Position numbers and translations under genes: made by a program. Shown piece by piece: positions 15,118 to 20,491 of a DNA stretch of 64,000 nt (its first letter is position 1; each line of letters starts with the position of its first letter). The stretch is from Chloroflexota bacterium. GTDB taxonomy: Bacteria > Chloroflexota > Dehalococcoidia > Lucifugimonadales > JACPCL1. Below the pieces are notes generated by a model, which saw only the letters and a list, made by a program, of their open reading frames with translations, made no database searches and had not been told where the DNA came from. The stretch lies in NCBI GenBank assembly GCA_016179765.1, contig JACPCL010000032.1, positions 1 to 64,000 of the forward strand, written 5' to 3'.

Positions 15118-16782
15118 TTATCCCCCACCGCCGCCACGGGGCATATCGTTCGGGTCAACGGGCACCTCAATAACGCTGGAGACCTCATTACTCATGGCAA
15201 TCTTCACGACCTCGGCCAACTGCTCAACCCGGTCCACGTAGTACCCTTTAGCCCCGTACAGCTCCGCCAGCTTGTCAAAGCGCGGGTTGGTGAGGTCTGC
15301 GCCGACGAACCTGTCCCCAAACTGGGCCTGCTGGAGGGCCTTCTCCGACCCGTAGATGTTGTTGTTCATCACCAGGGTGATGGTAGGGACCTTCTCCCGC
15401 ACCGCCGTCTCCAACTCTTGAGCGTTGAACAAGAAGCCGCCATCGCCGTTGATGGCGATGACCGGCGAGTGGGGCCGGGCCAGCTTGGCTCCAATAGCCT
15501 CGGGTATGGCATAGCCCAGGCCACCCGTAGGCGGAGAGATGAACGTGTGAGGCGTCTGGAAGTCCAGCCGGTCGTAGCCATAGGCGGCGCAGGCGCCGGC
15601 GTCAAGGATCATGACCGTCTCGGGTGTGATGACTTTGCGGAGCTCCGCGTAGACGCGGCGCGGGCTGATCATGGTTCCGCTGATGCGGCCTTCGGCGTTT
15701 AGGCGCTGTCGGCGCTTGGCCTTTAGCTCCTCGGCTTCTCTCCTCCAGGCCGGGTCGCCGCCTTCGGCCCCTTCCGCGCGCAGCGCCTCCAGGATGCTCA
15801 GGAGCACCGACTTGGCGTCTCCCAGGATGCCCACGTGCACGGGGCAGTTGCGGCCAATCTCCTTCTCATCTATCTCAACCTGGATGATGCGGGCATCCCT
15901 GGACACGGCCCCGCTTTGCAGGTAGTTGGCGAACCCCTGAAGGCGCGTCCCCACCGCCAGGATGACATCGGCCCTGGCGGAGAGGGTGGCGGTCTCGGCG
16001 GCGCCTCGCGGCCCGTATGGGCCAACGTAGAGGCCGTGGGCGTTGGGCAGGGCGTCGTTGCGCCGGTAGCTGGTGACCATGGGGATGGAGAGCAGCTCCG
16101 CCAGCTCCACGGCCTCCTGAGTCGCACCGCTCTCGGTGACGCCACCCCCCGCAATCAGCAGCGGATGGCGCGCCTGCCGGAGGAGCTGGGCGGCCTTACG
16201 CACCAGCGCCGGGTCCCCTGCCGGGCGCTGATGCGCGCGGTAGACCTCCGGAGGCAGGATATCCGCATCTATCGTTCGCTTCTGCATCAGGTCCGTGGGA
16301 AAGTCTATGAAGACTGGCCCCTTCTTACCTGCCATGGCCACGCGGAAGGCGTGGCGCATCAGCTCCGGAATGCGCTCCGCCCGGGGTATAGACATGGCCA
16401 GCTTGGTGATAGGACGGAACAGCGGGACGTGGTCCAGCTCCTGGCCCGCCTCCCGGTAGGTGCTGCCCTGGCCGGCGGCGCCCGAAATGGCAATGACGGG
16501 GGCTTGGGCCATGAAGGCGTTGTACAGGCCACCGACCAGGTTGGCGGCGCCAGGCCCGCCGGTGGCCAGGCATACCCCCGGCTCGCCCGATATCCGTGCG
16601 TAGGCGCTGGCCATGCAGGCAGCGCCCTGCTCGTGGCGGGTGGTGATGAACCGGATGTCATTGCGACCGTAAAAGCCATCAGCGATGTCCAGGAACGAGA
16701 CTCCCACAATGCCGAAGGCGTATTTGCATCCTTCGTTCACCAGGGACTCTACCACGGCGTGGCCTGCCGTCATGTTGGGCAT
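15118..16782 (-). CDS. ThDP-dependent acetolactate-synthase-like enzyme, paralogue A
   Basis: A 554-residue enzyme of the acetolactate synthase/oxalyl-CoA decarboxylase/sulfoacetaldehyde acetyltransferase superfamily. The catalytic Glu lies in TTRHEQGAACMASAYAR (Glu51). The ThDP motif is INGDGGFLFNAQELETAV with MNNNIYGS. The central-domain stretch SYRRNDALPNAHGLYVGPYG recalls sulfoacetaldehyde acetyltransferases. AGGGAGG precedes ATG 16782. A close paralogue lies directly upstream. With an oxalate-CoA-ligase-like gene nearby, an oxalyl-CoA-type decarboxylase is attractive, but the substrate cannot be fixed from the sequence. The C-terminus is a glycine run. Confidence 0.8.
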   Translation of the reverse strand: MPNMTAGHAVVESLVNEGCKYAFGIVGVSFLDIADGFYGRNDIRFITTRHEQGAACMASAYARISGEPGVCLATGGPGAANLVGGLYNAFMAQAPVIAISGAAGQGSTYREAGQELDHVPLFRPITKLAMSIPRAERIPELMRHAFRVAMAGKKGPVFIDFPTDLMQKRTIDADILPPEVYRAHQRPAGDPALVRKAAQLLRQARHPLLIAGGGVTESGATQEAVELAELLSIPMVTSYRRNDALPNAHGLYVGPYGPRGAAETATLSARADVILAVGTRLQGFANYLQSGAVSRDARIIQVEIDEKEIGRNCPVHVGILGDAKSVLLSILEALRAEGAEGGDPAWRREAEELKAKRRQRLNAEGRISGTMISPRRVYAELRKVITPETVMILDAGACAAYGYDRLDFQTPHTFISPPTGGLGYAIPEAIGAKLARPHSPVIAINGDGGFLFNAQELETAVREKVPTITLVMNNNIYGSEKALQQAQFGDRFVGADLTNPRFDKLAELYGAKGYYVDRVEQLAEVVKIAMSNEVSSVIEVPVDPNDMPRGGGGG

Positions 16783-16820
16783 TCCTCACCTCCCTAGGCT
16801 GACTGAATGTAGCTTTTATG

Positions 16821-16861
16821 GTGAGCATCGGGAAACTGCTTTGCAGTTTCCCGATGCTCAC
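16821..16861. terminator. Perfect hairpin between the two ThDP paralogues
   Basis: Arms of 19 bases (GTGAGCATCGGGAAACTGC and its complement) flank a TTT loop. It has the same loop and arm length as the hairpin at 15054-15096 but a different arm sequence. It probably separates transcription of the two paralogues. Confidence 0.65.
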
Positions 16862-16909
16862 AGAAGATTCTTCCCCCTTGTAGGGAAGGGGGACCGAGCG
16901 GTTAGGTTC

Positions 16910-18592
16910 TTACCTCCTCTCCGCCTCCAACACGCGGGCGGGTACGGGCAGCTCCTTGGGGTCTACGGGCATCTCTATGACGCTCGGTAGGTCGGAAGCC
17001 ATCGCCTGCTTCAACGCGTCGCCCACGTCCTCCACGCGGTCCACGTAGAAGCCGTTAGCCCCAAAGAGCTGGGCCAGCTTGTCAAAGCGGGGGTTGGTAA
17101 TGTCGGAGCCGACGGGGCGGTCGCCAAACATGGCCGCCTGATAGGCCTTCTCAGACCCCCAGACGCCGTTGTTCATGACCAGGGTGATGGTGGCGATCTT
17201 CTCCCGCACCGCCGTCTCCAGCTCCTGGACGTTGAACAGGAAGCCGCCGTCGCCGTGGATGGCGATGACGGGGGCATCGGGCCGGCCCAGCTTGGCGCCC
17301 AGGGCCTCGGGGAAGGCGAAGCCCAGGCCACCCAGATCCAGGGGGGTGATGAAGGTGCGAGGGCGATGGAACTCCAGGCGGTCGTAGCCGTAAGCGGGGC
17401 AGGCTCCAGCGTCCAGCACCATGATGGTCTCGGGCGTGATGACCTTGCGCATCTCTGCGTAGACGCGCTGCGGCTTGATCAAGGGGCCGGTGAGCCGCCC
17501 TTCGGCGGCCATACGCTGCTGGCGCTTGGCTTTCAGGCCTTCCGCCTCCCGGCGCCATGGCGGCTCCCCGCCTTCAGCCCCTTGCGCACGCAGGCCCTCT
17601 AACAGCTCCCGAAGAACCGTGCGAGCGTCTCCCTGGATGCCCAGGGTAACGGGATAATTGCGCCCAATCTCCTTCTCGTCAATCTCAATCTGGATTATCC
17701 TGGCGTCCTTGGAGATATACCGGTTGTCATAGTAAGTGGTGAAGTTGGACAGACGGGTGCCGGCGGCCAGGATAACGTCGGCCTTGGCGCAGAGCTCGCC
17801 TGCCTCCGGGGAGCCGCCGCGTCCCAGGGGGCCAACGTACAGGGGGTGCTCGTTGGGCACAGCGTCGTTACGTCCGTAGCTGGTGATCATGGGGATGGAG
17901 AGCAGGTCCGCCAGCTCCACCACCTGCTGCGTGGCGCCGCTCTCGGTGACGCCGCCGCCGGCAATGATGACGGGCCGCCGGGCGCTCCGGAGGGCCTGGG
18001 CGGCCTGGCGGACCAGGGCTGGGTCGCCGGGCAGGCGCTGGTGGGTGCGATAGCTGGTGGGCGGCTGCAACTCCGCATCAATGGAGACGCGGTCCAGGAG
18101 GTCCCTGGGGAAGTCTACAAAGACCGGCCCCTTCTTGCCGGACATGGCCACGCGGAAGGCGTGGCGCATCATCTCCGGCACGCGGTCCGATTTGTTCAGC
18201 GACATCGCCAGCTTGGTGATAGGCCGAAACAGAGAGATGTGGTCAATCTCCTGGAAGGCGTCCCGGTACATGACCTCCCGTGCCGGCGCGCCGGAGATGG
18301 CGAGGACGGGGGAGTGGCCCACGTAGGCAGCGTACACACCGGTGATGAGGTTGGTGGCTCCAGGGCCGTTGGTGGACATGCACACCCCGGGGATGCCGGA
18401 GGCGCGGGCGAAGCCATCGGCCATGAAGGCGGCGCCCTGCTCGTGGCGGACGCTGATGAACTTGATGTCCTTCTGGTCGTAGAAGGCGTCCAGAATCTCC
18501 AGAAAGGTCCCTCCCACGATGCCGAAGGCGTACTTGCATCCTTCGGCCCGCAGGGACTCCACCACGGCCTGGCCGGCGGTTATCTTGGGCAC
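16910..18592 (-). CDS. ThDP-dependent acetolactate-synthase-like enzyme, paralogue B
   Basis: A 560-residue paralogue of the downstream gene, collinear over its full length. It has VRHEQGAAFMADGFAR with the catalytic Glu, IHGDGGFLFNVQELETAV for ThDP/Mg binding, and SYGRNDAVPNEHPLYVGPLG. The best start is GTG 18592, six bases after GGGAGG; a TTG two codons earlier is less likely. The pair may form a hetero-oligomer or act on related acyl substrates. Context is the oxalate-like island to the left. Confidence 0.8.
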   Translation of the reverse strand: MPKITAGQAVVESLRAEGCKYAFGIVGGTFLEILDAFYDQKDIKFISVRHEQGAAFMADGFARASGIPGVCMSTNGPGATNLITGVYAAYVGHSPVLAISGAPAREVMYRDAFQEIDHISLFRPITKLAMSLNKSDRVPEMMRHAFRVAMSGKKGPVFVDFPRDLLDRVSIDAELQPPTSYRTHQRLPGDPALVRQAAQALRSARRPVIIAGGGVTESGATQQVVELADLLSIPMITSYGRNDAVPNEHPLYVGPLGRGGSPEAGELCAKADVILAAGTRLSNFTTYYDNRYISKDARIIQIEIDEKEIGRNYPVTLGIQGDARTVLRELLEGLRAQGAEGGEPPWRREAEGLKAKRQQRMAAEGRLTGPLIKPQRVYAEMRKVITPETIMVLDAGACPAYGYDRLEFHRPRTFITPLDLGGLGFAFPEALGAKLGRPDAPVIAIHGDGGFLFNVQELETAVREKIATITLVMNNGVWGSEKAYQAAMFGDRPVGSDITNPRFDKLAQLFGANGFYVDRVEDVGDALKQAMASDLPSVIEMPVDPKELPVPARVLEAERR

Positions 18593-18777
18593 GGGCAACC
18601 TCCCAGCAGCGCTTCAAGTTATCCAAGAAATCTTATCAGCACCGCCTCCTGATGGCAGCGGCATGATGCCTCTGACTTCAGGCTGGGGTGAAGAAACTTA
18701 TTTGGGGGACCGCTTCTTGAACAGCAACGGGCGGAGGTAGTTTAACACAAGTAGGGTGTATCGGCGGAGGTAGCCTT

Positions 18778-19387: not shown

Positions 19388-20491
19388 GTGCCTGTGCGAC
19401 TCTGCCCACCCCTACCCTTCCTCCTGCTGGCCGCAGTCGTGGCGTGCGAGCCAGGGTTCCCTACCCTATTGCCCTCTTCTCCCCTGTCATCCACTGTCAC
19501 GACGACGCCTGTTGTCGCCCTGCCCTCGCCAGTGTCTACGGCCTCGTCAGCCCCGGACGAAGACCTGAGCTACAGCCAGCGTACGCCCTTCGTCGCCCTG
19601 GACAACCCCCGGTTCATCAATGCCTCCCAGGCCGGCTCCCTGGCCTCCGATGACCTGGTGCTGGGCCTGGAATGGGAGGGCCAAACCCGGGCCTATCCCC
19701 TCTCCATGATGACCTACCACCACATTGCCAACGACGCCATAGGGGGCAAGCCCTTTTTGGCCACCTATTGAATCAAGTGTAGCTCAGGGGTCGGCTACGA
19801 CCCCCTGGTGGATGGACGTACCCTCACCTTTGACGTCTTTGGCCTGCTACAGGGGGTGCTTACCATGCGGGACCGGCAGACTGGCAGCGTATGGACGCAC
19901 CTTGACGGCAAGGCCATCAGCGGGCCGCTGCAAGGTGTACGCCTGAGGATGGTGCCCATGCCTCAGATGTCCTGGGGGGAGTGGAAGGCCCTGCACCCCA
20001 AGACGGTGGTGCTTTCGTCCGATACACTCTTTCAAGACCGGTACCGCCCCGTGCGCATCGGCGTCTTTAACCGGCAAGAGGCCCAGTTCGGCGACGCCCG
20101 CCTGCCCGCCAACACCCTGGTAGTGGGAGTGGAAGTGGAGGGGCAGTTCAAGGCGTATCCCCTAGCGGAGCTCCAGAGAGCCGGCGGCGTGGTCAACGAT
20201 ACCCTAGCGGGCCGGCCCATTGTGGCACTGTATGATCCCGAGGCCAACTCCGGCCTGGCCTACTCCCGCCAGCTTGACGGCGCCACGCTGGACTTCTCCA
20301 ACGCCTCAGCAGAGGGATTTCTCCCCCAGGACAAGCAGACGGGCTCCACCTGGGACCGCCAGGGGCGCGGTACCACTGGCCCTCTTGCAGGTAAGGCCCT
20401 GGCCTTTGTGCCCTCCTTCATCTCCGAGTGGTACGGCTGGTCGGGGTACCACCCACAAACGACCATCTTCTACGCTCCACCAGCCCCGTAG
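19388..20491 (+). CDS. DUF3179 lipoprotein with in-frame UGA at the CxxC cysteine (candidate selenoprotein)
   Basis: Two collinear open frames in the same phase, 19388-19768 and 19772-20491, are joined by a single TGA (19769-19771). DUF3179 proteins have the motif TYCPLCG. Here the reading is TY, TGA, then IKCSSGVGYDP, so the TGA replaces the first Cys of CxxC while the second Cys stays. Reading through gives 367 residues. It starts at GTG 19388 with the lipobox LLLAAVVAC and two DUF3179 halves (LEWEGQTRAYPLSMMTYH; VEVEGQFKAYPLAELQ). Selenocysteine insertion is inferred; a nonsense mutation is the alternative. DUF3179 has no established function and is usually exported. Confidence 0.7.
19785..19807 (+). 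promoter_or_regulatory. SECIS-like hairpin downstream of the in-frame UGA
   Basis: CAGGGGTCG pairs with CGACCCC-CTG (one bulged C) around a GCTA loop, starting 13 bases after the UGA and placing the loop 22 bases after it. Bacterial SECIS elements sit directly downstream of UGA at this kind of distance with a GC-rich upper stem and a G in the loop. The stem also encodes conserved protein sequence, so it could be incidental. Confidence 0.45.

Follow-up and report, generated by a model that had tools for sequence, protein, structure and literature searches.

The DUF3179 gene at 19388-20491 of the window (the whole stretch of 64,000 nucleotides of Chloroflexota DNA analysed here) very probably encodes a selenoprotein: we are all but certain that its in-frame UGA at 19769 is decoded as selenocysteine via SelB, tRNA-Sec and a hairpin downstream. 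From the sequence comparisons below, the gene appears to be a well-supported further case in a known selenoprotein family. The sequence-only reading had it that no selenocysteine form of DUF3179 had been described, which was wrong; the family (PF11376, UxxC/T) is listed as a selenoprotein family in two reviews (PMC9312934, PMC13188914), so that the claim of novelty fails. The DUF3179 selenoprotein is credited to Zhang & Gladyshev 2007, from the deltaproteobacterial symbiont of Olavius algarvensis (PMC9312934). What is new is a clade of SAR202-type Chloroflexota with Sec in every sampled member, together with a weak structural lead.

The gene and its in-frame TGA

The features of the gene are as follows.
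19388-20491, plus strand: predicted DUF3179 selenoprotein gene, 367 codons and TAG; the start is GTG 19388 or GTG 19394
19394-19447, plus strand: putative lipoprotein signal peptide, MRLCPPLPFLLLAAVVA-C, from the translation; codon of the lipid-anchored Cys at 19445-19447
19718-19720, plus strand: codon of invariant His111, 17 residues ahead of Sec (invariant column H55 of alignment A3)
19769-19771, plus strand: UGA predicted to encode selenocysteine 128 (72 homologous loci have TGA in this column and 32 have TGC or TGT)
19778-19780, plus strand: codon of Cys131, second member of U-x2-C (invariant column C75 of alignment A3)
19787-19804, plus strand: SECIS-like hairpin, 7-bp stem, loop GCUA at 19794-19797 (inverted repeat I6; compensatory changes in the clade)

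Translation of 19388-20491 gave a single internal stop, TGA at 19769-19771, ahead of the terminal TAG at 20489. The TGA is located at the first position of the DUF3179 CxxC, where the motif reads TY-U-IKC with the second Cys (19778) retained. Thus the description of a 367-codon gene with this TGA as its sole interruption and with the second Cys preserved was accurate. The read-through protein scored 223.5 bits against PF11376 over profile positions 6-292 of 292, well above the gathering score of Pfam of 27 bits, which served as the cut-off for membership.

The window, with a GC content of 63%, has 16 places where a TGA is flanked on either side by an open stretch of 90 codons or more. Because such flanking frames are common and the energy of the hairpin is ordinary (see below), the weight of evidence rests on comparison. 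No conserved gene neighbours surrounded the orthologous loci that were examined (Y-family polymerase, SRAP, TGT gene, YceI, multicopper oxidase), so that the context gave no clue to function. Upstream of the DUF3179 gene, on the minus strand of the window at 15118-18598, lie two adjoining genes for similar thiamine-pyrophosphate enzymes with an acetolactate-synthase-like three-domain architecture.

The codon at the selenocysteine column in homologues

At 104 homologous loci, which include a few genes fetched twice with the window's own gene among them, the codon at the Sec column was TGA in 72, TGC in 25 and TGT in 7, and never TAA or TAG. The residue homologous to Sec128 in the loci without TGA was always Cys. 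A column with TGA, TGC or TGT and with neither TAA nor TAG is the signature of selenocysteine and rules out nonsense mutation by chance. The TGA is shared by each of the 28 orthologues of the order that are closest to the window's gene (44-62% identity), two of which have a further stop, and by the nearest relatives beyond the order (41-45% identity). DUF3179 was found in 165 of 250 genomes of the order, with exactly one TGA in many of the copies.

Exactly one TGA was also present in each of the three DUF3179 copies of the window genome and in both copies found in its congeners. The two further copies of the window genome, L022 (G000:C16:17533-18471) and L025 (G000:C13:36419-37345), have their single TGA at the same column, and on this ground the genome would encode three predicted DUF3179 selenoproteins. 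A tree of 130 rows requires only 3 changes between Sec and Cys as compared with 37.9 in shuffles; the tree is unrooted, and duplicate and near-identical rows inflate such counts. The clade of 41 rows that contains the window's gene had Sec throughout. Those orthologue records that carry names belong to Chloroflexi, Dehalococcoidia and SAR202 cluster genomes, and it is from these relatives that we infer the SAR202-type placement of the window genome.

Might the gene be a pseudogene, or the TGA a sequencing error, with a nonsense change from TGC or TGT truncating the protein? Decay does occur among DUF3179 copies of the order, since internal stops were seen in L110 and L111 (both G214, TAG) and in L112 (G151, TAA). 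L111 and L112 have TGC at the Sec column, and wherever the column was readable the internal stop was elsewhere, so that the three are apparently decaying Cys copies. At the window's gene the reading is opposed by the recurrence of TGA at 72 homologous loci spread over many genera, by the conserved and covarying hairpin described below and by selection past the TGA: compared with five orthologues, dN/dS was about 0.14-0.24 after the TGA and about 0.31-0.42 before it, values that are rough because dS is near saturation. These ratios indicate that the codons following the TGA are under purifying selection. We give truncation next to no credence, as it is in effect already refuted by the orthologues.

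The SECIS-like hairpin

The arms of the perfect stem span 19787-19793 and 19798-19804, with a distance of 22 nt from the UGA to the loop, and an extended, bulged stem begins about 13 nt past the UGA. Both distances agree with those given in the sequence-only reading. The bacterial SECIS model asks for a loop 16-37 nt from the UGA and a G within the first two loop bases (PMC13188914), and the window hairpin with its 22 nt and loop GCUA fits. These rules held for 61 of 69 TGA copies as compared with 14 of 32 Cys copies. Stability alone was discarded as evidence, the z-score of -0.93 for the window hairpin being unremarkable. With codon-preserving shuffles the mean z-score was -1.64 for the window clade vs. 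-0.54 for Cys copies, which is supportive and on its own not decisive.

The loop begins 22 nt past the UGA in almost all sequences of the window clade, with G as its first base. The stem was paired in 99% of cells, and two pairs had changed on both sides, from G-C to A-U and from C-G to U-A. In a second Sec clade, mostly with the motif TWUPLC, the hairpin stands at 20-21 nt; its stem has four covarying pairs, is paired to 99.5% and greatly exceeds the clade's own slid and shuffled controls. In the Cys copies no conserved hairpin was found downstream of the motif.

Selenocysteine machinery

If the window genome decodes selenocysteine the machinery should be encoded there. A search for selA, selB, selC and selD, proposed as a check in the sequence-only reading, was successful for the first three, with SelA (537 bits), SelB (633 aa) and a tRNA-Sec with the anticodon TCA, and left selD without a match over the cut-off in the window genome G000, a 94.8%-complete draft. 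The best match below the cut-off looks by its sequence like thiamine-monophosphate kinase. selD was present in two of three congeners (G002 and G003, not found in G001); across the order, 214 of 250 genomes had a match at E <= 1e-25. Its occurrence in two of three congeners suggests that the missing selD is probably a gap in a 94.8%-complete genome, and draft incompleteness is the likely explanation.

SelD itself has one in-frame TGA in the best matches listed for the order (L057-L062 and others). In several genomes selD has a DUF3179 gene with a TGA as a neighbour at a distance of about 3-4 kb, namely at L129 (G121:C68), L125 (G118:C21), L195 (G071:C8), L196 (G072:C14) and L194 (G163:C99). 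The interval holds mazG and Lit genes in L125 and L129 and is arranged otherwise in L194; the proximity may come from shared synteny, without a functional link.

Another residue at the UGA, by a reassigned code (e.g. Trp) or by near-cognate read-through, has no point in its favor other than the in-frame UGA itself and is extremely improbable, because TGA terminates 10 of the 34 long non-overlapping ORFs within the window and hence is still a stop, because the homologous residue is always Cys, and because tRNA-Sec, SelA and SelB are present in the genome. Selenocysteine thus remains the preferred reading, in which SelB and tRNA-Sec would decode the UGA under the direction of the SECIS-like hairpin that follows it. 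The proposal of a candidate selenoprotein has gained strong support from selA, selB and selC, from TGA in all of the closest orthologues, as had been suggested as a check, with a hairpin that is kept and covaries, and from the low dN/dS past the TGA.

The protein and its predicted site

The putative lipobox at the N-terminus, VVA-C in the window's gene and a similar LSG-C in the orthologue L133 (both from translations), suggests export and a probable lipid anchor. The product would thus be a secreted DUF3179 protein, probably lipid-anchored, that carries the pair Sec128-x2-Cys131 and the invariant His111 on an extracytoplasmic beta domain. These three residues most likely form the reactive site. 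Of the redox or metal function proposed in the sequence-only reading, a selenol/thiol redox centre is the most likely form, with about even chances, judged by the motif and the predicted structure; a selenolate/thiolate metal site appears less likely.

AlphaFold predicted a confident, mostly beta structure with a pLDDT of 93.9 for the domain region and of 96.1 for the N-terminal part alone. By sequence no PDB homologue of DUF3179 was found (best E 0.5), and NCBIfam held no informative model for the family. When the Sec-bearing domain was compared with the PDB by Foldseek, there was no match below E 0.001 (E >= 0.008); the top matches were mostly Rieske ferredoxins and Rieske oxygenases, with a probability of up to 1.00 and a TM-score by target of about 0.5.

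The domain might accordingly be viewed as a divergent Rieske-type fold. The trio His111, Sec128 and Cys131 would then serve as ligands of a metal or an iron-sulfur cluster and not as a thiol/selenol redox pair. Apart from the nature of the top fold matches and the pLDDT of 94-96 of the models, the spacing of the His and the C-x2 motif is alike: H-x16-U-x2-C resembles the Rieske pattern C-x-H-x(15-17)-C-x2-H, a likeness by spacing without residue alignment. On the other hand, none of the fold matches is below E 0.001 and the TM-score is only about 0.5. Moreover, Rieske proteins (PF00355) possess the full C-x-H...C-x2-H set, whereas DUF3179 conserves only H...U/C-x2-C, the first Rieske Cys being missing and the second His replaced by Cys. 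Homology by sequence profile was pursued with hhalign against 31 Rieske domains and failed, with 9 columns aligned at a probability under 1%, no profile similarity and no match to PF00355. We consider a metal-binding Rieske-type site unlikely, and the Rieske-like fold as modelled is a weak lead only. Still more doubtful is the extended proposal that the cluster loops of a divergent Rieske-type fold turned into H-x16-U-x2-C with Sec in place of a cluster-ligating Cys, so that the Sec forms would be cell-surface selenolate-ligated metal or iron-sulfur proteins of SAR202-type Chloroflexota. Some relatives have many Rieske-domain genes, with 59 in G050, 55 in G161 and 37 in G145 vs. one in the window genome.

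By eye, the consensus of alignment A3 shows that both halves of DUF3179 repeat GxE-G...AYP...NDxxGG...W...G...L. This suggests an internal duplication, after which the U/C-x2-C site would have been left in the first half alone.

Discussion

The window's gene shares the Pfam family and the position of Sec in U-x2-C with the known DUF3179 selenoproteins. Unlike these, it belongs to SAR202/Dehalococcoidia-type Chloroflexota with several copies per genome, and its clade has the motif TYUIKCSSG with Sec in all sampled members. The Cys-type DUF3179 proteins (TYCPLC) share the family and the fold region with the window protein, yet have Cys at the Sec column and are without the conserved downstream hairpin. 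No literature naming SAR202 and selenoproteins together was found in a limited library, and the wider literature may differ.

Taken together, the comparisons show the little-known selenoprotein family DUF3179 to be widely distributed and stable over evolution in SAR202-type Chloroflexota, frequently with several copies; standard gene calling splits its genes in two there. The Rieske-like domain offers a structural lead for a family of unknown function. Finally, a clade without Cys members among those sampled is useful for asking why selenocysteine has been retained.
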